From Streptococcus sp. F0442 (GTDB taxonomy: Bacteria; Bacillota; Bacilli; Lactobacillales; Streptococcaceae): a stretch of 64,000 bases of DNA. Position 1 is the first letter of the stretch; each line of letters begins with the position of its first letter. The position numbers were made by a program, and so were the translations under genes. This document shows positions 44,725 through 60,897 of the stretch, piece after piece. The notes beneath the pieces are model-generated. The model was not told the DNA's origin, searched no databases, and saw only the letters and a list, made by a program, of their open reading frames with translations. The stretch lies in assembly GCF_000314795.2 (NCBI RefSeq), contig NZ_KB373314.1, forward strand, positions 1 to 64,000, written 5' to 3'.

Positions 44725-45489
44725 ATGTCTAAAGTAGCTATTGTCACAGGTGCAGGTCAAGGGATCGGTTTTGCGATTGCAAAACGATTGGTACAAGATG
44801 GCTTCAAGGTCGGAGTCTTAGACTACAATGCTGAGACAGCAGAAAAAGCAGTAGCTGAGTTATCAGCAGAGAATGCTTTTGCGGTCGTTGCTGATGTCTC
44901 CAAACAAGCTGAAGTGGCTGCAGCTTTCCAAAAAGTTGTGGATCATTTCGGAGATTTAAATGTTGTCGTTAACAACGCTGGTGTTGCTCCAACTACACCA
45001 CTTGATACGATTACAGAAGAACAATTTGAACGCACTTTTGCCATCAACGTTGGTGGTGTCATCTGGGGTGCTCAAGCTGCACAAGCTCAATTCAAGGCGC
45101 TTGGCCATGGCGGAAAAATCATCAATGCAACTTCACAAGCAGGTGTTGTAGGTAACCCTAACTTGACTGTCTATGGTGGTACTAAGTTTGCAGTTCGTGG
45201 TATCACTCAAACTTTGGCACGTGACTTGGCAGATTCAGGCATCACTGTCAATGCGTATGCACCTGGTATCGTTAAGACTCCAATGATGTTTGACATCGCT
45301 CATGAAGTTGGTAAGAACGCTGGTAAAGATGACGAATGGGGTATGCAAACTTTTGCTAAAGATATAACCCTCAAACGTTTGTCAGAACCTGAAGATGTAG
45401 CAGCAGCGGTTAGCTTCCTTGCAGGTCCTGATTCAAACTACATTACAGGACAAACTATCATCGTGGATGGTGGGATGCAGTTCCATTAA
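44725..45489 (+). CDS. budC: Acetoin/diacetyl reductase (SDR family)
   Basis: A 254-residue short-chain dehydrogenase, most like meso-2,3-butanediol dehydrogenase/acetoin reductase, converting diacetyl to acetoin and acetoin to butanediol with NADH. The cofactor motif [11 protein letters not shown] is near 8-18, NNAG near 84, and the catalytic Tyr-Lys pair in [11 protein letters not shown] near 150-160. AAGGAGG precedes the ATG at 44725; the longer upstream frame has no such site. Length 254 is typical of the family. Confidence 0.88.
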
Positions 45490-45500
45490 GATAATAAATA

Positions 45501-45532
45501 GAGGTTGGGATCAACATCCTAACCTCTGATTT
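45501..45532. terminator. Bidirectional terminator
   Basis: GAGGTTGGGAT-CAAC-ATCCTAACCTC with T6; separates the convergent reductase and lipoprotein genes. Confidence 0.8.
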
Positions 45533-45538
45533 TTTATG

Positions 45539-45958
45539 CTATTTCGTTAATACAATGGTATCAGAAGGATCTCGATCATCATCTTCGATGGTCAGTTGAT
45601 TGCCTTCAAGTGTGTAATATTTGAGATCATCTCCCACAGTGAGAGTATGATTGTCAGCGTGAACGGTTACAGGCTTGCTTTCTCTCTCGCCATCCCTTTC
45701 AACCTCTTCCCATGTGCCCGTCGTACCAGACAGGGTCAGAGTGATCTGATCATTTTCATCAGCCCCTTTGTATGTACCGTCTAGATTTTCAGCTTGGCTA
45801 GCCGTTTGTGAACCTTTAGAGCTTGAAGTACTCGAAGAAACCTTTTGGGGACTAGCAGAGCTTGCAGGTGTTTGAGCTGTCTGGTTAGAGCAGGCTGCTA
45901 AAAGACCAAGAACTGCCATTGAGGCAAGAGAAAGTGTGAGTTTTTTGGACAATGTCAT
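45539..45958 (-). CDS. Lipoprotein of unknown function
   Basis: A 139-residue lipoprotein. The signal peptide (KKLTLSLASMAVLGLLAAC) ends in lipobox LAAC, followed by a Ser/Thr/Ala-rich spacer and a small beta-rich domain (LDGTYKGADENDQITLTLSG...). The start is the ATG at 45958 because GGAG stands 8 nt before it; two upstream ATGs have poorer spacing. Minus-strand, single gene. Confidence 0.75.
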   Translation of the reverse strand: MTLSKKLTLSLASMAVLGLLAACSNQTAQTPASSASPQKVSSSTSSSKGSQTASQAENLDGTYKGADENDQITLTLSGTTGTWEEVERDGERESKPVTVHADNHTLTVGDDLKYYTLEGNQLTIEDDDRDPSDTIVLTK

Positions 45959-46145
45959 TGGCATGTCTCCTTTCTTTGTTCCTCCAAGTATAACAGAGCT
46001 TAGAGGAGAAGACAATGAAAATGTCTTTTCTGAAAGCTAGGATAGTAGGATTCGAAAAGGAGTTATATTATATTAGTAATCGTCGTTAAATAGTTTCTTA
46101 TATTTCTTTCAATAAAATGAAAGAATTTTACAAACAAATGAAAAA

Positions 46146-46189
46146 TGTAACCGTTTTCGGTTGACATTCAATCAGCTAATTAGTATAAT
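46146..46189 (+). promoter_or_regulatory. Promoter of operon A with CcpA cre site
   Basis: -35 TTGACA (46161-46166) and -10 TATAAT (46184-46189) with a 17-bp spacer, a near-consensus promoter. Immediately upstream, TGTAACCGTTTTCG (46146-46159) fits 13 of 14 positions of the cre consensus. A strong promoter would need downstream control, which the next feature supplies. Confidence 0.85.
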
Positions 46190-46205
46190 GGGTGTGGAAT
46201 AATAT

Positions 46206-46275
46206 AAAAGGCAATGAGGCCTATGATTGCAATGGCGCAACCGTTTCAAATCATAGGTTCTTTGTTGCCTTTTTT
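46206..46275 (+). promoter_or_regulatory. ANTAR-type antitermination leader, operon A
   Basis: Two consecutive hairpins have six-base loops with A at position 1 and G at position 4: AGGC-AATGAG-GCCT (46209-46222) and TTGC-AATGGC-GCAA (46227-46240), joined by a 4-nt linker. The same bases are needed for an alternative terminator: AAAAGGCAA pairs with TTGCCTTTT (46264-46272) and CCTATGATT (46220-46228) with AATCATAGG (46249-46257), followed by T's. This is the two-hairpin/terminator switch bound by ANTAR regulators such as EutV, which is encoded at 62604. Confidence 0.85.
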
Positions 46276-46306
46276 CTAATTAAAAATTTTTTTTGGAGGT
46301 TTTCTC

Positions 46307-47626
46307 ATGAAGAAACATCGTCTCTTTTTAGTTTGTGGTCTAGCCTTATTTATGGTTGGTTGTCAGGCTTCTCAGTCGTCTAAAACAACGGAGTCTAGTA
46401 AAGCTAGTCAGGAAACAAGCGTGAAGAAAGAAGATCAAGTCCTTGAACGTGGTCAGTGGGAGGACAAACTATATAAGAAATTAAGTAATGTCATTAAAGA
46501 AAATGGCAAATCTAGTTCAAAATATGATGAATCAGCAAAACCATATGCTGTATTTGACTGGGATAACACAACCGTCATCAATGATATCGGTGAAGCAACC
46601 TTCACTTATCAGATCGAAAACTTGGAATTTAAGATGACGCCAGAAGAGTTGGATAAGGCGATTCGTACAAATATTCCAGAAGACAACTTCACAGAAGATC
46701 ACAACAACAAGGAAGGAAACCCTGTTAATATTGATAAGATCGCCAAAGATATTGTTTCTGATTACACTGTGATTTATAATGAGTACAAAGGATTCAAGGG
46801 TTCTAAGAGCCTCGAAGAAGTAAAAAAATTAGACGAATATAAAGATTTCAGTGCTAAATTACGTTATCTTTACGAAGCCATCGGTGGAACCTTCAGCTCA
46901 GACATTTCTTATCCATGGGTAACTTACTTGTTTACTGGTATGACATCTGAAGAAGTTCAAGCGGTATCTGAAAAATCAATTGAACGTGCTTTGAAAGAAG
47001 ATTTGGTTTTTGAAACATGGGAAAGTCCAGAAAGCTTGAAAGGCGAAGCTGGTCAAGTGGAAATCAAATTTAAACGTGGTGTCCGTGCTGTAAAAGAGAT
47101 GCAAAATCTTTATAAGACTCTTCAAGATAACGGCATTGATGTTTATGTTGTCTCTGCTTCCTTCCGTGATGTCATTGTTCCTTTTGCTACTCTGGATAAA
47201 TTCGGTTATAATATTACTGAAGACCATGTGTATGGAATGGAACTTGTTAAAAATGATTCTGGTGTGATTCAATCAGAATACAATAACGACTACTTCCAAA
47301 CACAAGGTGAAGGAAAAACAAAAACAATCAAGAAATTTATTGCAGATAAACATGGCAACCAAGATCCTATCTTAATCGCTGGAGATAGTAACGGGGACTA
47401 CGCAATGTTGAAAGACTTTGATGGTTTACAAATTGGAATTATCTTCAATCTTTTGCGTGATCCTTCTAAAGGAATCGGCTTGTTATCACAGACTGCAGTA
47501 GATACATATGATAGTAAGGATGCTAAATACTTCCTACAAGGTCGTGATGAAAACAAGGGTGTTTTGGTCAAGAGCCGTGAAACAATTAAGTTAGGAACGG
47601 ATGAGGCACAGTTAATTAAAAAATAG
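46307..47626 (+). CDS. HAD-family surface phosphatase lipoprotein
   Basis: A 439-residue exported lipoprotein (lipobox VGC, cysteine near 19; Ser/Lys-rich spacer) with a HAD phosphatase domain. Motif I is VFDWDNTTVI (near 84; DxDNT), motif II VVSASF near 283 and motif IV IAGDSNGDY near 358. DWDNT and the overall layout resemble phosphorylcholine phosphatases. Placed first in an ANTAR-controlled B12/microcompartment operon, it could release ethanolamine (or choline) from phosphoesters at the surface; that is inference. GGAGG precedes the ATG. Confidence 0.8.
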   Translation: MKKHRLFLVCGLALFMVGCQASQSSKTTESSKASQETSVKKEDQVLERGQWEDKLYKKLSNVIKENGKSSSKYDESAKPYAVFDWDNTTVINDIGEATFTYQIENLEFKMTPEELDKAIRTNIPEDNFTEDHNNKEGNPVNIDKIAKDIVSDYTVIYNEYKGFKGSKSLEEVKKLDEYKDFSAKLRYLYEAIGGTFSSDISYPWVTYLFTGMTSEEVQAVSEKSIERALKEDLVFETWESPESLKGEAGQVEIKFKRGVRAVKEMQNLYKTLQDNGIDVYVVSASFRDVIVPFATLDKFGYNITEDHVYGMELVKNDSGVIQSEYNNDYFQTQGEGKTKTIKKFIADKHGNQDPILIAGDSNGDYAMLKDFDGLQIGIIFNLLRDPSKGIGLLSQTAVDTYDSKDAKYFLQGRDENKGVLVKSRETIKLGTDEAQLIKK

Positions 47627-47635
47627 GGGACATAT

Positions 47636-48070
47636 ATGAAGAAAATCATGTTTGTTGGTTCTGTTGGAGTGGGTAAAACAACGCTAACCCAACGGTTAAA
47701 AGGATTAGATATTGAGTATTTTAAAACGCAGGCTGTTCAATTCCATGATAGTATTATTGATACGCCAGGGGAATTTTTACAGCATAGACGGTATTACAAT
47801 GCGTTAACAGTGACTGCAGCAGAAGCTGAAATCATTGGACTCTTAATCGCAGGAAATTCGACCATGCAAACTTTTCCTCAAGGTTTTTCTTCATTATTCA
47901 ACCAAGATGTGATCGGAATCATTAGCAAAATTGATTTGGTAGACTCTGAGGAGCAATTAGAATTCGCGCGCAAGCAATTGATAGATGCAGGTGTCAAACG
48001 GATTTTTGAAATTTCTTCAACAGAGAATACTGGAATCGATGCTTTAAAGGACTTTCTTGAGAGTGAGTAA
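47636..48070 (+). CDS. pduV: EutP/PduV-family GTPase
   Basis: A 144-residue Ras-like GTPase associated with ethanolamine/propanediol microcompartments. The P-loop GSVGVGKTT is at about 8-16, switch region DTPGE near 42, SKID (G4) near 98. Related proteins have been reported at the microcompartment surface or as acetate-kinase-like enzymes. It starts 10 nt after the phosphatase gene. Length matches the family. Confidence 0.88.
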   Translation: MKKIMFVGSVGVGKTTLTQRLKGLDIEYFKTQAVQFHDSIIDTPGEFLQHRRYYNALTVTAAEAEIIGLLIAGNSTMQTFPQGFSSLFNQDVIGIISKIDLVDSEEQLEFARKQLIDAGVKRIFEISSTENTGIDALKDFLESE

Positions 48071-48114
48071 ACATGATATAATCTAAAAGGACTACTTTAT
48101 CTTTCAAGAAGGAG

Positions 48115-49206
48115 ATGTGTATGATTGTTGAACACGGAGGGAATGGACGTCTATTAGCTGAAAAAAATGGGAACTCTTCTGAAAAGTGGATTGATTTTAG
48201 TGCCAATATCAATCCGCTTGGAGTTTCTACAAGCCTCCGCCAAGTCTTAGTGGACAGTATTGATAGAATTACGGAATATCCGGATATCACCAACCAATAT
48301 GAAAAGGATTTACTGAGGGAGCATCATGGAAATCAAGATCTAGAAATCCTTTTGTCAAATGGTGCAGTTGGGTTATTTTACGAACTAGCTCAAACCTTAA
48401 AGCCGAAGAGATTACTGATTTTAAGTCCTACCTTCATGGAATATGAAAAAGCTTTTCATCAAGAAGGGACAGAAATTCTTTACCATCATTTAACAGCTCC
48501 TCATTTTACTTGGACTGTGGAAGGTCTATTATCCGATATAGACCAATTGGAAGCTGGAGATGTTGTCCTATTGTGTAATCCTAACAATCCAACTGGCTCC
48601 CTTGCTCCAGTTGGTCACTTGCTAGAAATCGGAAAAAAATTGCTGGAACAGAATATTCATTTTATTCTAGATGAAGCTTTTATTGACTTTTTAGAAGACG
48701 AGGAAGCATATAGTTTTGTTCCGTACTTGAGTGATTTTGCAAATGCGATTGTCGTTCGCTCTCTAACGAAATTTTACGCTATACCAGGCTTACGCTTAGG
48801 CTACGCTCTGGGGATTCATCCTTGTTTAGCAAAAATTAATGAACGACGGGCTCCATGGACGATCAATGCATTGGCTCTTCAAGCCTTGCCGGTGATTTTA
48901 AAGGATCGAGATTATCAAACTCAAACTTTAAAATGGCTACAGAAGGAAAAAGACTTCCTCTATCAATCCTTGAAAACTTTTTCTGCATTAAGTGTTCTAA
49001 AACCAAGTGTCAATTATATTTTCTTTCAGTATACGGGATCTAAGGATTTACGTGAAGAATTATGGCGGCATAACATTTTTATCCGCTCCTGTGCGAACTA
49101 TCGCAATTTGACGAGTGATTACTACCGCATTGCGGTTCGTAGTAGAGAGGAGAATAGCTGTTTATTAGCTGCCTTGGAAGCGATTCTTGGAGGAAAAGAA
49201 GAGTGA
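48115..49206 (+). CDS. cobD: Threonine-phosphate decarboxylase
   Basis: A 363-residue fold-I PLP enzyme (aminotransferase class I/II family) that makes (R)-1-amino-2-propanol phosphate for the B12 nucleotide loop. LCNPNNPTGSL near 148, FILDEAFIDF near 180 and the PLP lysine in RSLTKFYAIPGLRLGY near 212-227. It resembles HisC-type transaminases, but its position beside pduX and cobT identifies it as CobD. It has AAGGAG upstream. Confidence 0.9.
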   Translation: MCMIVEHGGNGRLLAEKNGNSSEKWIDFSANINPLGVSTSLRQVLVDSIDRITEYPDITNQYEKDLLREHHGNQDLEILLSNGAVGLFYELAQTLKPKRLLILSPTFMEYEKAFHQEGTEILYHHLTAPHFTWTVEGLLSDIDQLEAGDVVLLCNPNNPTGSLAPVGHLLEIGKKLLEQNIHFILDEAFIDFLEDEEAYSFVPYLSDFANAIVVRSLTKFYAIPGLRLGYALGIHPCLAKINERRAPWTINALALQALPVILKDRDYQTQTLKWLQKEKDFLYQSLKTFSALSVLKPSVNYIFFQYTGSKDLREELWRHNIFIRSCANYRNLTSDYYRIAVRSREENSCLLAALEAILGGKEE

Positions 49207-50078
49207 TGGGGGCGATAAAAGCATCTTGTCCAGGCTCTTGCGGAGAATTGTTTCAATGTGTGGTAGATGGTGAAGAGTTTTTGATGTCTTATGGCATTGA
49301 AAAGAAAAGTCAAGTAGTGATTGGCCCTCAAACAGGTGTCATGGAAGAAGGGCTGCGGCCTAAAATGCTGCAAGTCATCAATGAACTAACAGATCAAATA
49401 GATTTCGATTATACTTTTCAAACAGATATTTCTGTTGGGAAGGGCTATTCTAGCAGTACAGCGGACATGCTCTCGATATTAGGAGCTTATTCTGCCTATA
49501 AATATGGAACAGTATCGGTTCCCTTATTAACGAGTCTTTGTTCAAAGATTGAACCAAGTGACTCCGTAGGATTTTCAGACTGGACTGTAATGAATCCTCT
49601 TAATGGTGAGATTCAATGGCAGACCAGGTGGAAACCAAAGCTTTATGTGTACATTCTAGAGCCAGATCAAATGGTTGATACGACGAGTTTTATAAGAATG
49701 ATGGAAAGTCCCTTATATCCTGCAGAGCAATCTAAAACATTGTTGACTGATTTTAAAATAGCCTGTGACAAGCAAAATGTAGAGTTATTAGGCGCCGTTG
49801 CGACTAGAAGTGCTTTATTGAATAACAAACGACTACCCAAACCCTATTTAAACGATATTATCGACCTAGTAAATAATTTAGGTTTACTAGGAGTTAATAT
49901 TGCCCATAGTGGTAGTATTGTTGGTATTCTGCTGACAGAAGAGCAACTGATGCACATGACTGAGTTAGAAGAACGACTGTCTCATCATCCTTTAGCAAGC
50001 TATTATTCTCTCAGAAATCTAAGCAAGATTATATACGACGGGCTCCAGGTAAAGAATGTGGAGGAGATCCTTGAATAG
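49206..50078 (+). CDS. pduX: L-threonine kinase (PduX)
   Basis: A 290-residue GHMP-family kinase making L-threonine O-3-phosphate, the substrate of CobD. N-terminal KASCPGSCGELFQC and ATP-site GKGYSSSTADMLS (near 80) are diagnostic. The start shares TGATG with the stop of cobD, suggesting coupling; an adjacent GTG at 49203 is the alternative. It directs salvage and assembly of cobalamin rather than corrin synthesis. Confidence 0.9.
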   Translation: MGAIKASCPGSCGELFQCVVDGEEFLMSYGIEKKSQVVIGPQTGVMEEGLRPKMLQVINELTDQIDFDYTFQTDISVGKGYSSSTADMLSILGAYSAYKYGTVSVPLLTSLCSKIEPSDSVGFSDWTVMNPLNGEIQWQTRWKPKLYVYILEPDQMVDTTSFIRMMESPLYPAEQSKTLLTDFKIACDKQNVELLGAVATRSALLNNKRLPKPYLNDIIDLVNNLGLLGVNIAHSGSIVGILLTEEQLMHMTELEERLSHHPLASYYSLRNLSKIIYDGLQVKNVEEILE

Positions 50079-51135
50079 GCAAGAAGAATTAAATCAAATC
50101 CTAGATAAAATTGTACCCATTAATGCTACAGCATTAGAAGAGGGGGTAAAGGTGTGTGATCGCTTAGCAAAACCTCTTGGTGCATTAGGTAAAATGGAAA
50201 AAAATTATGCCAAGCTATATGCGATGTTTCCTAACAAAATCCAGCTATCAAAAAAAATCGTTATGATCTATGTAGCGGATAATGGAATTTGTGAAGAAGG
50301 AATCTCCTCAAATCCTATCGAAACAACCTTTATTGTAGCCAATAATATCAGAAATGGTAAAGCAGGGGTTTGTAATATTGCAGAACATGCTGGGTCTGAT
50401 ATTTGTGTCATTGATATTGGTTGTAAGAGTCAAATTTATTCCGATAACCCGGACCATGTGTTACATGGAACTCGCAATATGCTTAAAGAAGCTGCCATGA
50501 CGCGAGAGCAAGCCATTGAAGCCATTTTAGTTGGGTATAGAAGAACAGTTGAAAAGATCAATCAGGGCTATACCTTATTTGGAACAGGAGAGATGGGGGT
50601 TGGAAATACCACAACTTCCGCAGCAGTCATTGCTGCCACTTTGGGAATTCCTGCCCAAAAGGTAACAGGATACGGAGCGGGAGTGACGGAAGATATGAAG
50701 GCTCATAAAACAGCTGTCATTCAAGAAGCGGTAACCAAACACGCTCCCTATAGTGATATTATCGATCTCGTCTCTAAAGTTGGTGGCCTAGACATGTTGG
50801 GGATGGTTGGCACCTATTTAGCTTGTGCCCAGTACCAACTTCCTTGTGTCATTGATGGGTTGATTTCTTTGACAGGACTCTTAATTGCTTCACAGTTAAA
50901 GAAAGAAGTGGTTGACTATTGCTTCCCATCCCATTGTTCTACAGAACCGGGCTATCAAATTGTTTCGGATTATTTAGGCTTATCCCCGATGCTTCAAATG
51001 GATATGCGCTTAGGGGAAGGATCTGGTTGTCCTTTAGCTTTCTTTTTAATAGAAAGTTCCGTGTACACGATAGAGCGTATGCCGACTTTTGAGGAGGGAA
51101 AACTGGACCGGGATGACTACGTCGACATTAGATAA
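50071..51135 (+). CDS. cobT: Nicotinate-nucleotide:DMB phosphoribosyltransferase
   Basis: A 354-residue CobT that activates the lower-ligand base of B12 as alpha-ribazole phosphate. Motifs include ADNGICEEGIS near 68, GEMGVGNTTTSAAV near 172 and the catalytic-glutamate region LGEGSGCPLA near 315. A TTG at 50071 with GGAGGAG 5 nt upstream is the probable start, overlapping the pduX stop; an ATG five codons earlier also exists. No corrin-ring genes are in the window. Confidence 0.9.
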   Translation: MNRQEELNQILDKIVPINATALEEGVKVCDRLAKPLGALGKMEKNYAKLYAMFPNKIQLSKKIVMIYVADNGICEEGISSNPIETTFIVANNIRNGKAGVCNIAEHAGSDICVIDIGCKSQIYSDNPDHVLHGTRNMLKEAAMTREQAIEAILVGYRRTVEKINQGYTLFGTGEMGVGNTTTSAAVIAATLGIPAQKVTGYGAGVTEDMKAHKTAVIQEAVTKHAPYSDIIDLVSKVGGLDMLGMVGTYLACAQYQLPCVIDGLISLTGLLIASQLKKEVVDYCFPSHCSTEPGYQIVSDYLGLSPMLQMDMRLGEGSGCPLAFFLIESSVYTIERMPTFEEGKLDRDDYVDIR

Positions 51136-51157
51136 AGGCTAATAAAGGAGGAAAACT

Positions 51158-51760
51158 ATGCAACTATATACAAAGACTGGAGATAAAGGTCTTACAAAAT
51201 TAGTAGGTGGCCAAAGCGTTGCAAAAGATTCAGATCGTGTCAATGCTTATGGTACCGTAGATGAATTAAACACTTGGGTCGGTTATACAATTAGTAAAAT
51301 GGATCCAGATGATGAATTGAGAGACGAATTGTATCAGTTACAGAATTATCTGTTTGATTGTGGTTCTGATTTGTCTACTCCTCATGGTGTATACCCATAT
51401 AAAGTAGATGAAAGCCTCGTTAAATGGATTGAAGAACGAATTGATACTTATGCGGATATCCCACCAGCTCTGGAAAGATTTATTTTACCTGGTGGTGATG
51501 AAATTGCTTCAATGATTCATGTGGCAAGAACCATTGCTCGGCGTGCGGAGCGCCTTGTGGTAGCAACCATGTGGACGAATGAAATCAATAACCAAGTCTT
51601 GATTTTTATCAACCGTTTATCTGATTATTTCTTTGCGCTTGCACGTGTCATTAACTATCGTAAACACTGCCAAGATATTCCTTATGAAAGAGGAGCAAAG
51701 GTGTTCCACAATATTACAAAAGCAGATGTGGAGCGTTGGGCACAGAAGAATAATAGCTAA
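51158..51760 (+). CDS. pduO: PduO-type ATP:cob(I)alamin adenosyltransferase
   Basis: A 200-residue adenosyltransferase forming adenosylcobalamin, the cofactor of diol dehydratase and ethanolamine ammonia-lyase. It starts with the ATP-binding YTKTGDKGLTKLVGG and has VDELN near 34 and RTIARRAERL near 128-137. It corresponds to the N-terminal domain of Salmonella PduO; the C-terminal domain is encoded separately at 59550. AAAGGAGG precedes the ATG. A terminator follows. Confidence 0.95.
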   Translation: MQLYTKTGDKGLTKLVGGQSVAKDSDRVNAYGTVDELNTWVGYTISKMDPDDELRDELYQLQNYLFDCGSDLSTPHGVYPYKVDESLVKWIEERIDTYADIPPALERFILPGGDEIASMIHVARTIARRAERLVVATMWTNEINNQVLIFINRLSDYFFALARVINYRKHCQDIPYERGAKVFHNITKADVERWAQKNNS

Positions 51761-51763
51761 TAG

Positions 51764-51802
51764 AAAAAGCACTACCCAAACTAAAATTGGGGTAGTGCTT
51801 TT
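51764..51802. terminator. Terminator between operon A and the minus-strand RNA
   Basis: AAAAAGCACTACCC (51764-51777) pairs with GGGTAGTGCTTTT (51789-51802); A- and T-tracts on both sides make it bidirectional. Confidence 0.8.
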
Positions 51803-51851
51803 CTATTGATATCGAGACTAAAGTTTTGGAATAGAGCATCCTTTAGGAGAA

Positions 51852-52216
51852 AATAAAAAAACCTTACCTCCCCAGAGGGAAAGGCAAGGTTCACATTCGA
51901 AAGCCATATGTACATCAGTGTACAAACTTCATGTTAAGCATCGTTGGTTAACAGTAGCTCTCCAAATATTGACTCTGCTTCATCGCAGATGATGGAAAAA
52001 CCATCCTTAGAAAATGATACGTACTTAAACGTAGAGTCAATAGGGGAAAGCACTATTTTGGTGTATTTCCTAACTGACATCACCACCTTACATCGAGGCG
52101 TGAAATCTACTAAAATTTAAGAATAAAGACCTGACTTAAAGCAAAGCTTATCACAGTGGCGGGACCGTGTTGGATTTTCACCAAACTTCCATACCCTTAA
52201 AAGTACCAAAATCATT
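51852..52216 (-). ncRNA. Cobalamin-riboswitch RNA, EutX/Rli55-like
   Basis: On the minus strand, TTTGGTGAAAATCCAAC then ACGGTCCCGCCACTGTG (52187 down to about 52152) is the hallmark core of B12 riboswitches, with the B12-box-like AAGTCAGGTC at 52137-52128. No minus-strand gene follows. Downstream are CTGC-GATGAA-GCAG (51975-51988), TGTAC-ACTGAT-GTACA (51909-51924; loop A1, G4) with a weaker GCTT-AACATG-AAGT beside it, then a terminator AACCTTGCCT/AGGTAAGGTT with T7 (51891-51852). A riboswitch followed by ANTAR-type hairpins is the design of EutX and Rli55, which capture EutV when B12 is low. Confidence 0.85.
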
Positions 52217-52227
52217 TCTAGTAACTA

Positions 52228-52256
52228 CATAATATCACGATCTGGAAGAAACCGCA
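52228..52256 (-). promoter_or_regulatory. Promoter of the riboswitch RNA
   Basis: Reading the minus strand, TTGCGG, a 17-bp spacer and TATTAT lie just upstream of the riboswitch (about 52256-52228). It diverges from the pdu promoter, whose -35 is only some 45 bp away. Confidence 0.6.
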
Positions 52257-52297
52257 AGTATTATGCTTAAAAAATATAAAAATATATGCTTTTTCTT

Positions 52298-52326
52298 TTG
52301 CGTTGAAAACGTTTTTATGGTATACT
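52298..52326 (+). promoter_or_regulatory. Promoter of operon B with CcpA cre site
   Basis: -35 TTGCGT (52298-52303) and -10 TATACT (52321-52326), spacer 17 bp. The spacer consists largely of TGAAAACGTTTTTA (52304-52317), 13 of 14 positions of the cre consensus, so CcpA should block it during growth on preferred sugars. Confidence 0.8.
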
Positions 52327-52335
52327 CTTTGTAAA

Positions 52336-52425
52336 GTACAAAGGAGTACAAATTTAAGCGACGAAGCTATATGAAATATGCCAAAACTTTGTGTGGTTTG
52401 GCTGTATTTCATGTGGCTTCTTTTT
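52336..52425 (+). promoter_or_regulatory. ANTAR-type antitermination leader, operon B
   Basis: Hairpin 1 is GTAC-AAAGGA-GTAC (52336-52349; loop A1, G4). Hairpin 2 is AGC-GACGAA-GCT (52357-52368; loop G1, G4, the same GAYGAA type seen in the riboswitch RNA). The terminator GAAGC...GGCTTC with long inner stem TATGAAATA.GCCAAA / TTTGGCTGTATTTCAT and T5 (52363-52425) uses the 3' half of hairpin 2, so the two forms exclude each other. EutV binding is therefore predicted to permit pdu transcription. Confidence 0.78.
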
Positions 52426-52494
52426 ATGTATTCTGAAGAGTTTCATCTAGTAAAGGAGGTAAAATAATGAAACTCAAGAAAGAAAGGAGAACGG

Positions 52495-53637
52495 ATGTAT
52501 AACATATACTACAAAACACAAATTTATGTCGGCAAGGGTGCCTTGGCTCACTTGGGCGACTATCACAACCAATCGATATTGGTTGTTGCGGATCCATTTT
52601 TAAAAGAATCTGGACAGTTGGATCGCATTCTTGAATTCTTAGATACAAGTAACGATCTTGTGATCTTTACGGATATCGTTCCAGATCCGCCAATTGATGT
52701 CATCGTGGCAGGGATTAAAGCTACGGAAGGAAAATCAATCGATATTGTCTTATCAGTTGGTGGAGGATCTGCAATCGATGCTTCTAAAGCCATGTATTAC
52801 TTTGCTAAGAAACAAGGTGTCTTTAAAGATGTGAAACTCATCTCTATCCCGACGACTAGTGGTACAGGCTCTGAAGTGACGAGTTTTGCAGTGATTACCG
52901 ATGCTGAGAAAGAACAAAAGTATCCGATTGTCGATTGGGATATTTTACCAGAGGTCGCAATTTTGGATTCGAATTTGGTGGAAACTTTACCAGCTAATAT
53001 CACAGCTGACACTGGTATGGATGTGTTGACGCATGCAATCGAGGCTTATGTTTCTAATAAAGCGACTGATTTTTCCGACGCTTTGGCTGAAAAAGCTATC
53101 AAATTAGTTTTTGAATACTTACCTCGTGCATACAAAGACGGGCATGATTTGGAAGCGCGTGAAAAAATGCATGTGGCCTCTACCTTGGCAGGAATGGCCT
53201 TCAACTCAGCTTCATTGGGGATCAATCATAGTATCGCCCATGCTGCAGGAGCAAAATTCCATATCCCACATGGACGTCTCAACAGCATCTTAATGCCGCA
53301 TATTATCCAGTATAATGCTAATGTGACAACTAATGGTGCCCGCACAGGTAATTTGAATAAAGAAACTGCTGAACGCTATCAACAGATTGCTCGTTTATTA
53401 GGCTTGAGTGCTTCTACACCTGTTCTTGGTGTACGACAACTAGTCGATGCTGTTCGGAAACTTCAGAAGAAATTAGATCACCCAACTTCATTGAGCGCTT
53501 ATGGAGTAGGACTTGAAGATTTTAATGAAAATAAGCGTGAGATTGCAGAAGCGGCCTTAGTGGATAAGTGTACGATTACGAATCCAAGAGTTCCTACAGT
53601 TGAAGAATTGTTGAAAGTTGTAGAACAGGCTTTTTAA
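52495..53637 (+). CDS. pduQ: Iron-dependent alcohol dehydrogenase (PduQ/EutG type)
   Basis: A 380-residue group-III alcohol dehydrogenase, expected to reduce propionaldehyde to 1-propanol while regenerating NAD+ in the compartment. SVGGGSAIDASKA near 89 binds NAD; TTSGTGSEV near 120; iron ligands are in HSIAHAAGAKFHIPHG near 245-260. First gene after the antitermination leader; GGAG lies upstream of its ATG. EutG, its ethanolamine counterpart, cannot be separated from PduQ by sequence; position favours PduQ. Confidence 0.88.
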   Translation: MYNIYYKTQIYVGKGALAHLGDYHNQSILVVADPFLKESGQLDRILEFLDTSNDLVIFTDIVPDPPIDVIVAGIKATEGKSIDIVLSVGGGSAIDASKAMYYFAKKQGVFKDVKLISIPTTSGTGSEVTSFAVITDAEKEQKYPIVDWDILPEVAILDSNLVETLPANITADTGMDVLTHAIEAYVSNKATDFSDALAEKAIKLVFEYLPRAYKDGHDLEAREKMHVASTLAGMAFNSASLGINHSIAHAAGAKFHIPHGRLNSILMPHIIQYNANVTTNGARTGNLNKETAERYQQIARLLGLSASTPVLGVRQLVDAVRKLQKKLDHPTSLSAYGVGLEDFNENKREIAEAALVDKCTITNPRVPTVEELLKVVEQAF

Positions 53638-53679
53638 AAATATTACAGTCGTTTTTATCATACATAAAGGAGTAATAAA

Positions 53680-54384
53680 ATGGCTAATAATTGTAATGTT
53701 ACTGAATTTGTTGGTTCAAATCCAACAGGAGATACCATTGGTCTCGTGATTGCCAATGTCGATCAACAGTTGTTGGATGCTATGAAGTTGAAAAAATACT
53801 ATCGGTCCATTGGTATTATAGGTGCTCGTACAGGAGCTGGACCTCATATTATGGCTGCAGATGAAGCTGTAAAAGCTACAAATACAGAGATCGTTAGCAT
53901 CGAATTACCTCGTGATACAAAAGGTGGAGCAGGACATGGTAACTTAATTATCTTTGGTGGAGAAGATGTATCAGATGTACGCCGTGCAGTAGAAGTAACT
54001 TTAGGTGAAGTCAATCGTACATTTGGAGATGTCTATGCCAATGAAGCAGGCCATATCGAATTGCAATACACTGCGAGAGCAAGCCATGCCATCGAAACAG
54101 CTTTTGGTGCTGAAGTTGGTCGTGCCTTTGGTCTCATTGTAGGTGCGCCTGCAGCCATCGGAGTTGTTATGGCGGATACTGCAGTTAAATCAGCTACAGT
54201 TGATGTTGTTGGTTATGCTTCACCAGGTAATGGTGGAACAAGCCATTCAAATGAGGTCATTTTGTTTATCAGTGGTGATTCTGGAGCAGTGAGACAAGCT
54301 GTCGTTTCTGCAAGAGAAATCGGGCTTCAATTGCTTGGAAGTCTCGGTGACACACCAGTGAATGGTCAGCCATCCTACATTTAG
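53680..54384 (+). CDS. pduB: Microcompartment trimeric shell protein PduB
   Basis: A 234-residue shell protein with two tandem BMC domains (BMC-T): about 20-115 (SIGIIGARTGAGPHIMAADEAVKATN) and 125-220 (AFGLIVGAPAAIGVVMADTAVKSA). Such trimers form pseudohexagonal tiles with a gated pore. It is the only shell protein of the pdu section; no PduA/J-type hexamer is in the window. AAGGAG precedes it. Confidence 0.92.
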   Translation: MANNCNVTEFVGSNPTGDTIGLVIANVDQQLLDAMKLKKYYRSIGIIGARTGAGPHIMAADEAVKATNTEIVSIELPRDTKGGAGHGNLIIFGGEDVSDVRRAVEVTLGEVNRTFGDVYANEAGHIELQYTARASHAIETAFGAEVGRAFGLIVGAPAAIGVVMADTAVKSATVDVVGYASPGNGGTSHSNEVILFISGDSGAVRQAVVSAREIGLQLLGSLGDTPVNGQPSYI

Positions 54385-54402
54385 AGAATGGGGGAATGAA
54401 AG

Positions 54403-56067
54403 ATGACAAAATCAAAACGTTTTGAAGTTCTCAGTAAACGACCAATTAATCAGGATGGATTCGTAACAGAGTGGGTTGAAGAAGGTTTAGTGGCTATGGA
54501 TAGCCCTAATGATCCAAAGCCTAGTATTCGTATTGAAAATGGCGTCGTAGTTGAATTAGATGGAAAATCAAGAGAAGAATTTGATTTAATCGATCAGTTT
54601 ATCGCTACTTATGGAATTGATTTGAAACATGCAGAAGAAGTTGTTCGAATGGATTCTAAAGAGATCGCTAACAAAATTTTAACTCCGAATGTACCACGTT
54701 CTGAAATTGTTCGATTGACCAAAGCAATGACTCCTGCAAAAATTTGTGAAGTTGTGAATCACATGAATGTTGTTGAAATCATGATGTGTTTGCAAAAAAT
54801 GCGGACACGGAAACAAACAGCAACACAAGCGCACGTTACAAACGTGAATGATAATCCGGTACAGATTGCTGCGGATGCTGCAGAAGGGGCTCTGCGTGGA
54901 TTTGCTGAACAAGAAACCACAGTAGCCGTTGTTCGTTATGCACCTTTCAATGCCTTGTCTCTTATGATTGGTTCGCAAGTTGGTCGTCCTGGAGTTCTCA
55001 CTCAGTGTTCATTGGAAGAAGCAACAGAACTTGAATTTGGTATGCGTGGCTTCACGGCTTATGCTGAAACTATCTCCGTTTATGGTACAGAAGATGTATT
55101 TACAGATGGTGATGATACTCCTTGGTCAAAAGCCTTTTTGGCGTCTGCCTATGCTTCTCGTGGATTGAAGATGCGTTTTACTTCAGGGACTGGTTCAGAA
55201 GTTCAAATGGGACAAGCAGAAGGTAAGTCTATGCTTTACTTGGAAGCTCGCTGTCTATATATTACAAAAGCTGCGGGTGTTCAAGGAACACAAAATGGTT
55301 CTGTTAGTTGTATTGGTATTCCAGCAGCTGTTCCAAGTGGTATTCGTGCAGTCGTTGCTGAAAACTTAATTGCGACGATGCTGGACCTTGAATGTGCCTC
55401 TTCAAATGACCAAACATTTACTCACTCAGATTTGCGGCGTTCTGTACGTACCTTAATGCAGTTTGCACCTGGTACCGATTTTATTAACTCTGGATATTCT
55501 GCAACTCCAAACTATGACAATATGTTTGCTGGATCTAACTGGGATGCTGAAGATTTTGACGACTACAATGTTCTGCAACGTGACTTACGTGTAGATGGTG
55601 GTTTGCGCCCTGTTCGTGAAGAAGAAGTTATCAAGGTTCGGAATAAAGCGGCGCGTGTGATGCAAGCTCTATTTAAAGGTTTAGGTTTACCTGCTATCAC
55701 AGATGAAGAAGTGGAAGCGGCGACTTATGCACACGGTTCAAAAGATATGCCTGACCGTGATAAGGTTGAAGATATCAAAGCGGCTCAAGGTATCCTTGAA
55801 CGTGGTGTTCAAGGTGTGGATCTTATTAAGGCTTTGGCAAACAATGGCTTCCCAGAAATTGCCAATGAACTCTTGAATTTGTTTAAACAACGTGCTGCAG
55901 GTGACTTTTTACAAACGTCTGCTATTTTCGATAAAGATTGGAATGTTATATCAGCTATTAACTCTCCGAACGATTATGTTGGTGTCGGAACTGGACATCG
56001 CCTAGTGGGAGAAGAATGGGAAAAGGTTAAAGATATTCCACGTGCGATCGACCCTCGTGATATATAG
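54403..56067 (+). CDS. pduC: Propanediol dehydratase large subunit
   Basis: A 554-residue alpha subunit of B12-dependent diol dehydratase, which turns 1,2-propanediol into propionaldehyde. The TIM-barrel substrate and cobalamin-facing segments are intact (VNDNPVQIAADAAEGALRG; RFTSGTGSEVQMG; GSVSCIGIPAAVPSG; CASSNDQTFTHSD). Length matches Salmonella PduC (554). Propanediol rather than glycerol use is suggested by context, although both dehydratases are homologous. Confidence 0.96.
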   Translation: MTKSKRFEVLSKRPINQDGFVTEWVEEGLVAMDSPNDPKPSIRIENGVVVELDGKSREEFDLIDQFIATYGIDLKHAEEVVRMDSKEIANKILTPNVPRSEIVRLTKAMTPAKICEVVNHMNVVEIMMCLQKMRTRKQTATQAHVTNVNDNPVQIAADAAEGALRGFAEQETTVAVVRYAPFNALSLMIGSQVGRPGVLTQCSLEEATELEFGMRGFTAYAETISVYGTEDVFTDGDDTPWSKAFLASAYASRGLKMRFTSGTGSEVQMGQAEGKSMLYLEARCLYITKAAGVQGTQNGSVSCIGIPAAVPSGIRAVVAENLIATMLDLECASSNDQTFTHSDLRRSVRTLMQFAPGTDFINSGYSATPNYDNMFAGSNWDAEDFDDYNVLQRDLRVDGGLRPVREEEVIKVRNKAARVMQALFKGLGLPAITDEEVEAATYAHGSKDMPDRDKVEDIKAAQGILERGVQGVDLIKALANNGFPEIANELLNLFKQRAAGDFLQTSAIFDKDWNVISAINSPNDYVGVGTGHRLVGEEWEKVKDIPRAIDPRDI

Positions 56068-56079
56068 GAGGACCTAACG

Positions 56080-56751
56080 ATGACAGAAATAAATGAAACG
56101 TTGTTGCGCTCGATCATCGAGAGTGTGTTAAAAGAAGTGAAAGCAGAATCTAACGATCATGTAGAACCAACTCATCATGTAGATGCTACAACTACGGCAT
56201 CCGTCAATGAGGGAACAGTTATTCGAAAAGTTGGGGTTGCTCAGCCAAGTCAATCTGTTGATGAAGTTGTTATTGCGGTTGGTCCAGCTTTTGGGGAACA
56301 ACAAGTTAAAACAATGGTTGACATACCGCACACTGAAGTACTGAGACAATTAGTTGCAGGAATTGAAGAAGAAGGCTTGAAAGCTCGGATTGTGAAAGTA
56401 TATCGTTCATCTGACGTGGCTTTCGTGGCTGTTGAAGGGGACCACCTTTCTGGTTCTGGAATTTCTATTGGTGTACAGTCCAAAGGAACAACTGTGATTC
56501 ACCAACGTGATTTACCACCATTGAGTAATCTAGAACTCTTCCCTCAAGCACCACTCTTGACTCCTGAAACCTATCGTTTAATCGGCAAAAATGCTGCCAA
56601 ATATGCAAAAGGTGAAACACCAAATCCTGTTCCTACCTTGAATGATCAAATGGCACGTCCAAAATATCAGGCTTACTCAGCTTTGCTTCACATTAAAGAA
56701 ACAAAATTGGTCGTAAAAGGTAAGCCTGCAGATGAGTGTGTGTTAATTTAA
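56080..56751 (+). CDS. pduD: Propanediol dehydratase medium subunit
   Basis: A 223-residue beta subunit. Its N-terminal amphipathic helix [18 protein letters not shown] resembles the encapsulation peptide that targets Salmonella PduD into the microcompartment; a low-complexity linker follows (about 22-45) before the catalytic-core domain ([22 protein letters not shown]). AGGAGG precedes the ATG. It contributes to the cobalamin site with PduC. Confidence 0.95.
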
Positions 56752-56766
56752 AGTAGGAGGTCCACA

Positions 56767-57276
56767 ATGGCAGAATCAGTTGAATTATTAGTAAAACAAA
56801 TCTTAGAACAAATGAATCGTTCTGAGACAAGTGCTCCAAGCTTTTCAAGTAGCAATCAAGACGAAGCAACAGCTAATGATTATCCAATTGCTAAAAAGCA
56901 TCCAGACTGGATTAAAATTGGAGATAACAAGAAATTTGAAGATGTTACATTGGAAAATATTCTTTCAGGTCGAATTTCATCTCAGGACTTACGGATTAAA
57001 CCAGAGATTCTAATTAAACAAGGTGAAATCGCCAAAAATTCTGGTCGTGAGGCTATTCAATATAACTTTTCTCGTGCTGCTGAATTGACTCGTGTTCCAG
57101 ACAAACGTGTTCTAGAAATTTACAATGCTTTACGTCCTTATCGTTCTTCTAAAGAGGAACTCTTATCCATTGCAGAAGAATTGGAAACACAATATCAAGC
57201 AAAGATTTGTGCAGGATTTATTAGAGAAGCCGCTGAACATTATGAACGTCGTAAGAAATTGAAAGGCGATAACTAG
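56767..57276 (+). CDS. pduE: Propanediol dehydratase small subunit
   Basis: A 169-residue gamma subunit of diol dehydratase. It too has an N-terminal amphipathic helix (AESVELLVKQILEQMNR) followed by a Ser/Thr-rich linker, which could be a second encapsulation signal. The helical core (YPIAKKHPDWI..., LTRVPDKRVLEIYNALRPYR) is typical. GTAGGAGG precedes the ATG. Confidence 0.95.
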   Translation: MAESVELLVKQILEQMNRSETSAPSFSSSNQDEATANDYPIAKKHPDWIKIGDNKKFEDVTLENILSGRISSQDLRIKPEILIKQGEIAKNSGREAIQYNFSRAAELTRVPDKRVLEIYNALRPYRSSKEELLSIAEELETQYQAKICAGFIREAAEHYERRKKLKGDN

Positions 57277-57302
57277 CAGCGAGATAGAATTGGAGGAAAA
57301 TA

Positions 57303-59162
57303 GTGAAATATATCATTGGTGTTGATATTGGGAATTCCTCAACAGAAACTGCGTTAGCAGCATTCGATACTGCACAAAATAAACTTCACTTCCTTTCATC
57401 TGCTATTTCTGATACGACTGGTATTAAGGGAACGAAAGAAAATGTTCATGGAATCTATGATTCTCTTCGCAAATTAATGGCTAAGACGTCACTTGATTTA
57501 AAAGATATTAGTTTGATTCGCATTAACGAAGCAACGCCAGTTATCGGGGACGTAGCTATGGAAACCATTACGGAAACTGTGATTACAGAATCCACAATGA
57601 TTGGTCATAATCCTCGGACCCCAGGCGGACTTGGTTTAGGTGTCGGGAAAACGGTTTATATTCTTGACTTAATTAATCAAGTGAAAACGGAGCCTTATAT
57701 TGTAGTTGTTCCAAAGAATATTGATTTTGATTTAGTAGCGAAGTTGATCAATGCTTATTTTGAAAACGGTTACAATATTCAAGGAGCTGTGCTCCAAGCA
57801 GATGATGGTGTCTTGGTCAATAATCGTTTAAGATCTAAAATCCCGATCGTAGATGAGATTCTATACATTGATAAGGTGCCCTTGGGCATGTTAGCGGCGG
57901 TAGAAGTTGTAGAGCAGGGTAAAGTCATTACACAGTTATCTAATCCTTATGGGATTGCGACTGTTTTTGAACTGAATCCGGATGAAACAAAGAGCATTGT
58001 GCCAATCGCGCGTGCCCTGATTGGAAATCGTTCAGCGGTTGTGATTAAAACGCCAAAAGGTGATGTCAAAGCCCGTAAAATTCCAGCTGGGACAATTCAA
58101 ATTATTGGTGAAAATCAAATCTTACGTGTGGATGTTTCTAAGGGATCTGAAGCGATCATGGAGCAGGTGGTCCTTGCTAATAATATCCAAAATGTAATTG
58201 GAGAAGCTGGAACAAACGTCGGTGGCATGCTTGAAAAAGTACGGCAAACCATGGCCAAACTGACAGATAAAAGTCAAGATCAGATAGCTATTCAAGATTT
58301 ATTGGCAGTGAATACCTTTGTTCCGATCTCTGTTCAAGGGGGCTTGGCTGGTGAATTTTCTATGGAACAAGCAGTTGGAATTGCTTCTATGGTTAATTCT
58401 GATAAACTTCAAATGTCTATCATAGCGAAAGAAATTGAGCATGAGTTGGGCATCCCAGTTGAAATAGGAGGCTCTGAAGCAGAATCCGCTATTTTAGGGG
58501 CTTTGACGACTCCAGGATCAGACACCCCACTTGCTATTTTGGATTTGGGTGCTGGATCCACAGATGCTTCCATCATTAATAAGCAAGGTGAGATTCATGC
58601 CATTCACTTGGCAGGAGCAGGGGATATGGTGACCATGCTGATTAACTCAGAGCTTGGCCTTGAGAACCGTCATTTGGCGGAAGATATCAAAAAATATCCC
58701 TTAGCTAAAGTTGAGAGTCTTTTCCATATCCGTCATGAAGACGGAACTGTTCAATTCTTTGATCAACCCTTATCAAGTGATTTATTTGCACGTGTGGTTA
58801 TAGTAAAAGGTGAACAAGAGTTTGTTCCGTTGAACAACCAGGACTTTTCCATTGAGAAGATTCGCTTGGTTCGGCAATCTGCTAAAGAGCGTGTATTTGT
58901 TACCAATGCGATTCGTGCTCTGAAACGGGTGAGTCCTACGGAAAATATTCGTGATATTCCTTTCGTCGTCATCGTTGGTGGTTCTGCATTAGACTTTGAA
59001 ATTCCGCAGCTAGTGACAGAAGCTTTGTCACAACATGCCATCGTAGCTGGTCGCGGAAATGTACGAGGAAATGAAGGGCCAAGGAATGCTGTAGCCACTG
59101 GGTTAATCTTGACGTATGCTAGAGAGGCAGAGGGTGGCCGTTATGACTATTCAATTATCTAA
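57303..59162 (+). CDS. pduG: Diol dehydratase reactivase large subunit
   Basis: A 619-residue actin-fold ATPase (DdrA/DhaF family) that frees damaged cobalamin from inactivated diol dehydratase. It starts IIGVDIGNSSTETALAA (phosphate-1 loop) and has AILDLGAGSTDASII near 411-425 and the late VIVGGSALDFEIPQL. Length is close to 610 as in relatives. It overlaps pduH by 20 nt. Confidence 0.95.
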   Translation: MKYIIGVDIGNSSTETALAAFDTAQNKLHFLSSAISDTTGIKGTKENVHGIYDSLRKLMAKTSLDLKDISLIRINEATPVIGDVAMETITETVITESTMIGHNPRTPGGLGLGVGKTVYILDLINQVKTEPYIVVVPKNIDFDLVAKLINAYFENGYNIQGAVLQADDGVLVNNRLRSKIPIVDEILYIDKVPLGMLAAVEVVEQGKVITQLSNPYGIATVFELNPDETKSIVPIARALIGNRSAVVIKTPKGDVKARKIPAGTIQIIGENQILRVDVSKGSEAIMEQVVLANNIQNVIGEAGTNVGGMLEKVRQTMAKLTDKSQDQIAIQDLLAVNTFVPISVQGGLAGEFSMEQAVGIASMVNSDKLQMSIIAKEIEHELGIPVEIGGSEAESAILGALTTPGSDTPLAILDLGAGSTDASIINKQGEIHAIHLAGAGDMVTMLINSELGLENRHLAEDIKKYPLAKVESLFHIRHEDGTVQFFDQPLSSDLFARVVIVKGEQEFVPLNNQDFSIEKIRLVRQSAKERVFVTNAIRALKRVSPTENIRDIPFVVIVGGSALDFEIPQLVTEALSQHAIVAGRGNVRGNEGPRNAVATGLILTYAREAEGGRYDYSII

Positions 59163-59523
59163 TAAACCAAAGATCATTTTCTATATCCCAAAGGATAGTG
59201 AAACAACTGTTTTTGATCAAGTTGGTTTTGGTATTGAAGAAGAAGGGATACCGTTTGAATATATTCAGGCAGAATCAGTTGAAGATGTTGTTTTAACAGC
59301 CCATCGTGCTTCTCATGAATCGTCCTTACTAGTTGGCATAGCGGCCAATAAACATGATATCGTCCTTCATTATAGGAATTTACCCAAAGAAAAATATGTT
59401 TATAGAATTAAACAATATGACGGTGTTGGAAATCGGGAGTTACGTTTATTGGGCACAAATGCCGCTCGGTTAGTTAAAGGGGTACCCTTTAACACAAGTT
59501 CGATTTTTGATGTTACATTTTAG
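59143..59523 (+). CDS. pduH: Diol dehydratase reactivase small subunit
   Basis: A 126-residue DdrB/PduH subunit that swaps with the beta subunit of diol dehydratase during reactivation (KPKIIFYIPKDSE..., VGIAANKHDIVLHYRNLP). I chose the ATG at 59143, which follows AGAGGGTGG; earlier in-frame ATGs lie deep within pduG. Confidence 0.92.
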   Translation: MTIQLSNKPKIIFYIPKDSETTVFDQVGFGIEEEGIPFEYIQAESVEDVVLTAHRASHESSLLVGIAANKHDIVLHYRNLPKEKYVYRIKQYDGVGNRELRLLGTNAARLVKGVPFNTSSIFDVTF

Positions 59524-59549
59524 TTCAAGATTAGCAGGAGGTGGTTAAA

Positions 59550-60041
59550 GTGACGATGAATGAGGATAAAATTGAAAAAATGACTTTAAAGATCCTTAAA
59601 GAAATTTTGAATCGTTATCCTGTTGAATCAAATCATTCGAATTATTCCAATCCACTCTATCAAAAGGCGTGGGATATTGTACAAAGAGCAGTGAAAAAAG
59701 CAAAAGACTTACAAGTTGATGTGGTCATTACAGTTCTTGATTCAAGTGCTCGCGTCATCATGACTTATAGAATGGAACATGCGTTATTAGTTAGCGATGA
59801 GATGGCTTATAAAAAAGCATATACTGCTGTAGGAATGAAAATGGAATCAAAAGATTTAAAACCATTAACTCAACCGGGACAATGGTTATATCAATTGGAA
59901 ATGATGTTGGACAATAAAATTGTCAGTCTTTCTGGTGGGGTTCCAATTTTTGAGGGAGAACATCTACTGGGGTCCATTGGAGTCAGTGGTGGAAATTCTA
60001 TACAAGACCAAGAAATTGCGTTATATGCCATCGATAGATAA
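59550..60041 (+). CDS. GlcG/PduO C-terminal-type heme-binding protein
   Basis: A 163-residue protein of the GlcG/HbpS (DUF336) family, equal to the C-terminal domain of Salmonella PduO, which binds heme. The core is ALLVSDEMAYKKAYTAVGMKM... and GGVPIFEGEHLLGSIGVSGG. The first ~20 residues (NEDKIEKMTLKILKEILNRY) form an amphipathic helix and a short linker like the PduD and PduE targeting peptides, so it may be a lumen protein. Start: GTG 59550, 8 nt after AGGAGG; ATG 59556 is possible. Confidence 0.85.
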   Translation: MTMNEDKIEKMTLKILKEILNRYPVESNHSNYSNPLYQKAWDIVQRAVKKAKDLQVDVVITVLDSSARVIMTYRMEHALLVSDEMAYKKAYTAVGMKMESKDLKPLTQPGQWLYQLEMMLDNKIVSLSGGVPIFEGEHLLGSIGVSGGNSIQDQEIALYAIDR

Positions 60042-60058
60042 TAAGTAGAGGTATCATA

Positions 60059-60772: not shown

Positions 60773-60855
60773 TCGTGGAATACGCAAAAAAGCAGAAAAA
60801 TATACAACTTGATGAGAACAAGCATGATTGTTTAAAAAGTTGTACATAATAGATT

Positions 60856-60897
60856 GTAGGACAGAAGCTATTGAAATGAGGTCTGTCCTACTTCTTT
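60856..60897 (+). terminator. Terminator/attenuator before ackA
   Basis: GTAGGACAGA (60856-60865) pairs perfectly with TCTGTCCTAC (60882-60891), then TTCTTT. Upstream, TACAACTT and AAGTTGTA (about 60804-60844) form another stem around AACAA-GCATGA-TTGTT. The hairpin ends only about 18 nt before the ackA start, leaving no room for a promoter between. It either ends the pdu transcript with partial read-through or is a regulated attenuator; ANTAR-type loops are not convincing here. Confidence 0.65.

Follow-up and report, generated by a model that had tools for sequence, protein, structure and literature searches.

Here we describe a leader element of Streptococcus sp. F0442, at positions 46206-46275 of the 64,000-nucleotide stretch of contig NZ_KB373314.1 that was analysed (hereafter the window), which is very probably controlled by the ANTAR response regulator EutV and would be the streptococcal counterpart of the Enterococcus faecalis eutP attenuator. 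The element is of a known kind; what is new is its set of targets, an interlocked terminator and a predicted positive AdoCbl loop. One switch appears to govern not only cofactor assembly but also de novo B12 synthesis and a surface enzyme; if this is true, vitamin B12 production by a common oral bacterium depends on ethanolamine and AdoCbl.

The leader and the probable operon behind it

The leader, the genes downstream of it and the putative regulator comprise the following features.

46161-46189, plus strand: sigma-70 promoter, TTGACA-17-TATAAT, matching the consensus at 12 of 12 positions
46209-46222, plus strand: ANTAR hairpin P1, loop AATGAG on an AGGC/GCCT stem (sequence, fold, and a match to covariance model R1 at 46209-46240)
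46223-46226, plus strand: 4-nt linker ATGA between P1 and P2 (sequence)
46227-46240, plus strand: ANTAR hairpin P2, loop AATGGC on a TTGC/GCAA stem (sequence, fold)
46206-46275, plus strand: intrinsic terminator whose folding excludes P1 and P2 (-30.2 kcal/mol, z -5.4; covariation in the basal stem)
46307-47626, plus strand: HAD-fold lipoprotein, PchP-like phosphatase by homology (PF12710; PDB 4gxt, 4as2; lipobox)
47636-48070, plus strand: EutP/PduV-family GTPase, pduV (TIGR02528, above cut-off)
48115-49206, plus strand: cobD, threonine-phosphate decarboxylase (TIGR01140, above cut-off)
49203-50078, plus strand: pduX-like GHMP kinase (weak PF00288 match, slightly under cut-off)
50056-51135, plus strand: cobT (TIGR03160, above cut-off)
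51158-51760, plus strand: pduO, cobalamin adenosyltransferase (TIGR00636, above cut-off)
51767-51803, plus strand: hairpin and T-run closing the operon (inverted repeat read in the sequence; our scanner gives its minus-strand form only)
62604-63182, plus strand: EutV, receiver and ANTAR domains (PF00072, PF03861; 6wsh, E 5.6e-61)

The first-pass annotation called this leader a textbook two-hairpin ANTAR switch with a 4-nt spacing and a terminator that reuses the hairpin stems. The sequence at 46209-46240 bears out the loops and the spacing: both loops are hexaloops with A1 and G4, both have a C-G closing pair, and the linker is of 4 nt. Folding of leader nucleotides 1-43 gives P1 and P2, with three extra pairs on P2; at -9.4 kcal/mol (z -0.43) this two-hairpin fold is unremarkable alone, since 65 of 200 shuffles do equally well. 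The whole 70 nt folds into a single terminator that swallows both hairpins, as the annotation had it, with a T-run at its end, and none of 200 shuffles is as stable as its -30.2 kcal/mol (z -5.4). The leader thus has the paired A1/G4 hexaloop hairpins of an ANTAR element, on stems that reach the minimum of 3 bp, and a terminator overlapping P2, and the genome encodes an ANTAR response regulator. The word 'textbook' needs one qualification, for the linker, which falls slightly under the 5-12 nt described for E. faecalis eut leaders; cutting the eutP linker to 3 nt impaired that element (PMC3369931). More distant HAD leaders have linkers of 7-8 nt.

A scan of the 64-kb window for dual A1/G4 hexaloops on stems of at least 3 bp, separated by a short linker and overlapped by a terminator, returned 46209-46240 as its sole site, against a chance rate of 0.056 per window (301 matches in 5,338 dinucleotide shuffles). 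These criteria are strict: the ADH leader (G1 in P2) and the eutA leader (a mismatch in P1) of the same genome escaped the scanner and were recovered by reading and with R1. A DUF3642 lipoprotein gene (window 45539-46015, minus strand) diverges from the promoter region of the element.

To examine the relationship between hairpins and terminator we aligned 15 eutP and HAD leaders, one or two per distinct type (alignment A3). The base of the terminator consists of the 5' arm of P1 paired with the 3' arm of the terminator, with 98.1% standard pairs and 9 double-change cells against 3.9 in shuffles, none of 500 having as many; one pair is A-U in seven leaders and U-A in seven others. The hairpins keep 86.7% (P1) and 98.3% (P2) of their pairs, the outermost P1 pair being missing in 8 of the 15. 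Because the 5' arm of P1 forms the terminator base, both hexaloops are predicted to compete with the terminator in eutP and HAD leaders. This differs from E. faecalis eutP, for which P1 is described as remaining folded beside the terminator (PMC8934654), whereas the terminator studied here absorbs both P1 and P2. The P1 of the cbiA leader in the F0442 genome lies outside its terminator.

EutV is the only ANTAR-domain protein of this genome. It aligns with E. faecalis EutV (6wsh) gap-free across 190 residues and retains the phospho-acceptor D54 and the RNA contacts R142, K147, R168, M172 and R175, with Y164 replaced by F and the further substitutions K143I, N173Q and R177P; residue roles, including the stacking of Y164 on G4, are those described for the E. 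faecalis protein (PMC8934654). EutW (HisKA_2, GAF_PdtaS) starts at 63169 and extends beyond the window end.

Downstream of the HAD gene, pduV, cobD, pduX, cobT and pduO are tightly spaced or overlap and are followed by a terminator, so that a single operon running from the HAD gene to pduO is likely. The name of the pduX-like gene derives from its position and from the first-pass annotation, an NCBIfam search of 49203-50078 having given no match. The gene called pduV belongs to the EutP/PduV family (TIGR02528) and E. faecalis has an EutV attenuator upstream of eutP (PMC5821096); by this homology the site is the classical eutP site.

The HAD-fold lipoprotein

Of 197 genomes of the genus, 24 bear EutV and 173 were treated as lacking it; 26 gave ANTAR matches, and two weak ones (G022, G151) were set aside and counted within the 173. 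A HAD gene (E<=1e-20) is found in 18 of the 24 EutV-bearing genomes and in none of the 173 others (p 9.6e-21), related genomes in these and later counts being non-independent. A lipobox is present in 16 of 16 streptococcal homologues. The protein studied here is 99% identical to that of S. parasanguinis 886_SPAR, and the window thus probably belongs to this species group. In one S. sanguinis-type genome (G009) the HAD gene is interrupted and gives two matches (L064/L066), one with an internal TGA.

By sequence profile the closest structures are 4gxt (E 5e-97) and P. aeruginosa PchP, 4as2 (E 1.2e-16), and structure comparison with a model of mean pLDDT 69.7 gave Z scores of 37.9 and 23.2, respectively, with 18-23% identity in the structural alignments. 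An alignment of 11 of the 20 HAD match rows (A1; the rows omitted are seven near-identical copies of the S. sanguinis type and both parts of the split gene) has HAD motifs I-III in place; D84, D86, T88, K337, D360 and D364 do not vary, and S283 hardly does. Compared with PchP, motif I and S283 have aligned counterparts and motif III only a weakly aligned one; PchP E42 falls opposite G95 and E43 opposite E96. The lipoprotein thus shares with PchP (4as2/4as3) and 4gxt the HAD fold, DxDNT, the motif II serine, a GDxxxD-type motif III and export, and differs from PchP in being a lipoprotein and longer. PchP hydrolyses phosphorylcholine, phosphoethanolamine and p-NPP (PMC3170909).

Genome context outside the streptococci was drawn from the best 80 of 256 HAD relatives. 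Of 64 loci, 19 have eutB/eutC nearby and 45 do not, some loci being cut by contig ends. The linked loci include those of Cupriavidus, Herbaspirillum, Brevibacillus and Fusobacteriaceae, and eutB/eutC were found beside the HAD gene at none of 8 Paenibacillus loci and none of the Clostridium-type loci.

We favour, with moderate confidence, the reading that the HAD lipoprotein is a surface phosphatase acting on phosphoethanolamine, which would make it a candidate source of ethanolamine. It is also possible, if less probable, that the protein is a phosphocholine or general acid phosphatase, or a replacement phosphate acetyltransferase as proposed for Fusobacteria, and releases no ethanolamine. The first of these variants is consistent with the acceptance of phosphorylcholine and p-NPP by PchP (PMC3170909), and the second with a prediction for the Eut clusters of 12 Fusobacteria genomes, whose HAD protein, 28% identical to PchP, was assigned phosphate acetyltransferase activity (PMC6620236). 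Against this alternative, the locus studied here already has a PduL-type phosphate acyltransferase (PF06130), the lipobox of the streptococcal homologues would place the protein outside the cell, and the linkage of the HAD gene is to eutB/eutC.

Conservation of the element and predicted extent of the regulon

A DNA search of the 197 genomes with the leader found full-length relatives in just two besides its own, 16 other genomes giving short, weak matches, and elements were therefore sought by structure instead. The same leader gave no match in a phage collection. Covariance model R1 was built from 16 elements (alignment A2: 18 elements minus three near-duplicates plus that of S. danieliae), in which 97.3% of pair cells are standard and 23 double-change cells stand against 7.6 in shuffles, none of 500 having as many. 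G4 is invariant and A1 nearly so, and the loops are therefore conserved in related genomes, a point on which the first-pass annotation had staked its reading. In whole-genome searches, which scored 150 of roughly 1,000 candidates per genome, the covariance-model check that it had proposed came out in its favour: R1 matches at E<1e-4 in 24 of 24 EutV-bearing genomes, the best match often being the ADH leader, and at E<0.01 in 1 of 24 controls taken from the 173 EutV-lacking genomes. The control match, in G161, falls inside an open reading frame of 571 aa, where the scanner reports no terminator. R1 was in part built from leaders that it later recovered, its seeds including some of the genomes searched, so that the controls carry weight and the absolute scores do not.

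The element heads the pduV operon in 22 of the 24 EutV-bearing genomes, whether HAD is present or absent (21 complete matches of the targeted search, and G053, whose element came from the HAD-leader scan and the whole-genome search). In G013 its place is between cobD and pduX, and in G176 there is no R1 match at the head of the pduV operon. It precedes HAD in 17 of 18 HAD-bearing genomes, a count from a scan repeated with strands oriented, a strand-blind scan having missed most; the exception is G111, where HAD is located after eutH. Since the element stands immediately before pduV in the HAD-less genomes G064, G120, G124 and G157, and in G111, the switch appears to belong to the EutP-cobalamin operon, with HAD inserted behind it. 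Further afield, the HAD leader of Granulicatella (L146) scores 16.2 bits with R1 and was left out of the counts, and 9 of 10 further HAD-bearing genomes have ANTAR proteins, a hand-picked set that yields no rate. In Enterococcus sp. PF1-24 (L102, about 7353-7522), whose genome has two ANTAR proteins, hexaloops AATGTG and AATGAT can be seen by eye in the HAD leader, which has no T-run terminator and no R1 match.

The regulon would be wider than the operon named by the first-pass annotation, comparative evidence supporting candidate elements before ADH, eutA and cbiA as well. Two features within the window belong here.

52336-52369, plus strand: second ANTAR element, before the eutG-like Fe-ADH (R1 38.8 bits, E 7.1e-6)
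52495-53637, plus strand: eutG-like iron alcohol dehydrogenase, first of the pdu/eut genes (PF00465/PF25137)

The R1 matches of this genome rank as ADH leader (E 7.1e-6), cbiA leader (2.4e-5, contig position 76037), the element at 46209-46240 (1.5e-4) and eutA leader (0.05, contig position 64618); the next match (C3, E 0.17) has no terminator by the scanner, and the eutS leader within the window has no R1 match. The ADH leader has G at position 1 of its P2 loop (GACGAA), and P1 of the eutA leader has one A-C mismatch, read in the sequence. Natural A1 variants with G1 comprise P2 loops GACGAA and GATGAA and the P1 loop GACGAT, and occur at 52336-52369, in the pduV leader of G111 (L216) and in cbiA leaders (L220-L222), in elements that are conserved in other respects. 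What we take to be a cre-like box, TTGAAAACGTTTTTA (window 52304-52318), overlaps the ADH/pdu promoter and suggests carbon-catabolite control there. Diol-dehydratase pdu genes (window 53680-59523) lie between the eutG-like ADH and eutS, and the gene of an HbpS-like protein (PF03928, window 59541-60041) is flanked by those of the dehydratase reactivase and an aquaporin; in S. parasanguinis 886 (L088) just about 2 kb lie between ADH and eutV.

The de novo cobalamin operon begins with cbiA, which at E<=1e-60 occurs in 22 of the 197 genomes, all of them EutV-bearing, and a targeted R1 search gave a match directly upstream of it in all 22. The whole-genome search, with its 150 scored candidates, had listed the cbiA element in 9 of the 22; the other 13 score 18.5-23 bits. 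In these leaders A1 is kept in P1 in 19 of 22 (G in 3) and in P2 in 22 of 22, and the T-run is matched in 21 of 22.

A second alternative is that the element is a true EutV target while the cob genes and cbiA are mainly under internal promoters or other regulators. Promoter-like matches are indeed present inside the operon, the region 45000-64000 holding 72 against 51 in shuffles, so that many are chance. We consider this unlikely given the tight or overlapping spacing of the operon genes and the element directly before every cbiA, with TTGACA-type boxes upstream by eye, and regard dependence of the cobalamin genes on EutV control as probable. That the leader is a plain intrinsic terminator or attenuator unrelated to EutV, its hexaloops mere by-products of inverted repeats, is very improbable: it could appeal to the strong terminator, the unremarkable two-hairpin fold and the rate of look-alikes in shuffles, but the loops keep A1 and G4 while the stems change by compensation, presence tracks EutV (24 of 24 against 1 of 24), and eutA, ADH and cbiA are likewise preceded by such an element. 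EutV control of the HAD-pduV-cobD-pduX-cobT-pduO genes, as first proposed, is thus supported comparatively, by the single ANTAR protein, by the distribution of R1 matches and by the placement before HAD in 17 of 18 genomes; binding of the leader by EutV is predicted from these comparisons.

A putative AdoCbl-sensing decoy and the predicted sign of the feedback

Facing the ADH leader on the opposite strand is a candidate EutX-like RNA with the following parts.

52072-52217, minus strand: AdoCbl riboswitch of the EutX-like RNA (RF01482, 120 bits)
51933-51952, minus strand: decoy hairpin P1, loop AACGAT, one C-C mismatch (sequence, conserved)
51909-51924, minus strand: decoy hairpin P2, loop ACTGAT (sequence, conserved)
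51859-51892, minus strand: terminator of the EutX-like RNA, a 15-pair stem and T-run

The order of parts is that of EutX, with the AdoCbl aptamer upstream of dual hairpins, which would share a transcript with it and bind EutV; such a reverse-oriented EutX arrangement has already been reported for S. sanguinis (PMC5821096). The riboswitch is the only RF00174 match of the genome at E<=1, and the same search found none upstream of cbiA or the eutP operon. At E<=0.1 RF00174 matches every one of the 24 EutV-bearing genomes (8 of 24 above the family cut-off), exactly once in 23, G010 having a second, weak match. In 23 of 24 the riboswitch match is on the strand opposite the ADH leader and no more than about 0.5 kb from it; the exception, G176, has a partial, weak match some 0.6 kb upstream of pduV, on the strand of that gene, and no cbiA match. 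Decoy hairpins with A1 and G4 are found in 22 of 24 loci for P1 and 19 of 24 for P2. Elsewhere in the window, at 816-1046, Rfam sRNA_1300, which takes its name from an Enterococcus sRNA, is matched over its full length with 275 bits.

In the model that we propose, RNA polymerase would start constitutively at 46161-46189 and stop by default at the terminator. With ethanolamine, EutW would phosphorylate EutV, a dimer of which would hold P1 and P2, hairpins made from 5' strands required by the terminator, and transcription would thereby enter the HAD-eutP/pduV-cobD-pduX-cobT-pduO operon; EutV would act likewise at the eutG-like ADH, eutA and cbiA leaders. The minus-strand RNA with its decoy site would leave EutV free only when AdoCbl is present: AdoCbl would shorten the decoy, phospho-EutV would antiterminate cbiA and the eutP-cobD-cobT-pduO operon, and cobalamin synthesis would come on together with the pathway that uses it. 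Outside the cell, the HAD lipoprotein probably frees ethanolamine from phosphoethanolamine, and EutH would import the ethanolamine.

Because the sole riboswitch of the genome sits in the decoy RNA, AdoCbl may activate B12 synthesis if the decoy acts as in E. faecalis, a reading by analogy that we hold only provisionally. It is similarly as a tentative proposal, to which we give marginally more credence, that we suggest, for streptococci with de novo B12 synthesis, an ethanolamine-gated positive feedback in which AdoCbl would switch on cobalamin synthesis, possibly bistable and fed by a second positive loop through an EutV-controlled, ethanolamine-making surface phosphatase.

Streptococcus figures among the new matches named in the text of Ramesh 2012. 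To our knowledge no report links ANTAR to cobalamin biosynthesis, in a search of the literature that took in the text of PMC3369931; the cbiA and HAD-leader sites may be in the tables of Ramesh 2012. Earlier descriptions of ANTAR attenuation concern mainly ethanolamine catabolism and other nitrogen genes (PMC3369931). The closest known systems are the E. faecalis eut attenuators before eutP, eutG, eutS and eutA, with which the streptococcal elements share dual A1/G4 hexaloops, terminator overlap, constitutive promoters and EutVW (PMC3369931, PMC5821096). The eutP, eutG and eutA sites each have a counterpart in the present genome, whereas no element was found before eutS in the window; conversely, the streptococcal eutP operon carries cobD, pduX, cobT and pduO, and an extra element precedes cbiA. 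The decoy resembles the EutX and Rli55 RNAs in its AdoCbl riboswitch followed by dual EutV hairpins, and differs from them in that it would gate the AdoCbl-making genes too and in the one mismatch of its P1. Cobalamin riboswitches commonly repress cob/cbi operons. The present arrangement has in common with these an AdoCbl-sensing control over B12 genes, but here control would run through EutV and be positive in AdoCbl, so that, if this is true, the sign of the feedback is positive in place of riboswitch repression.
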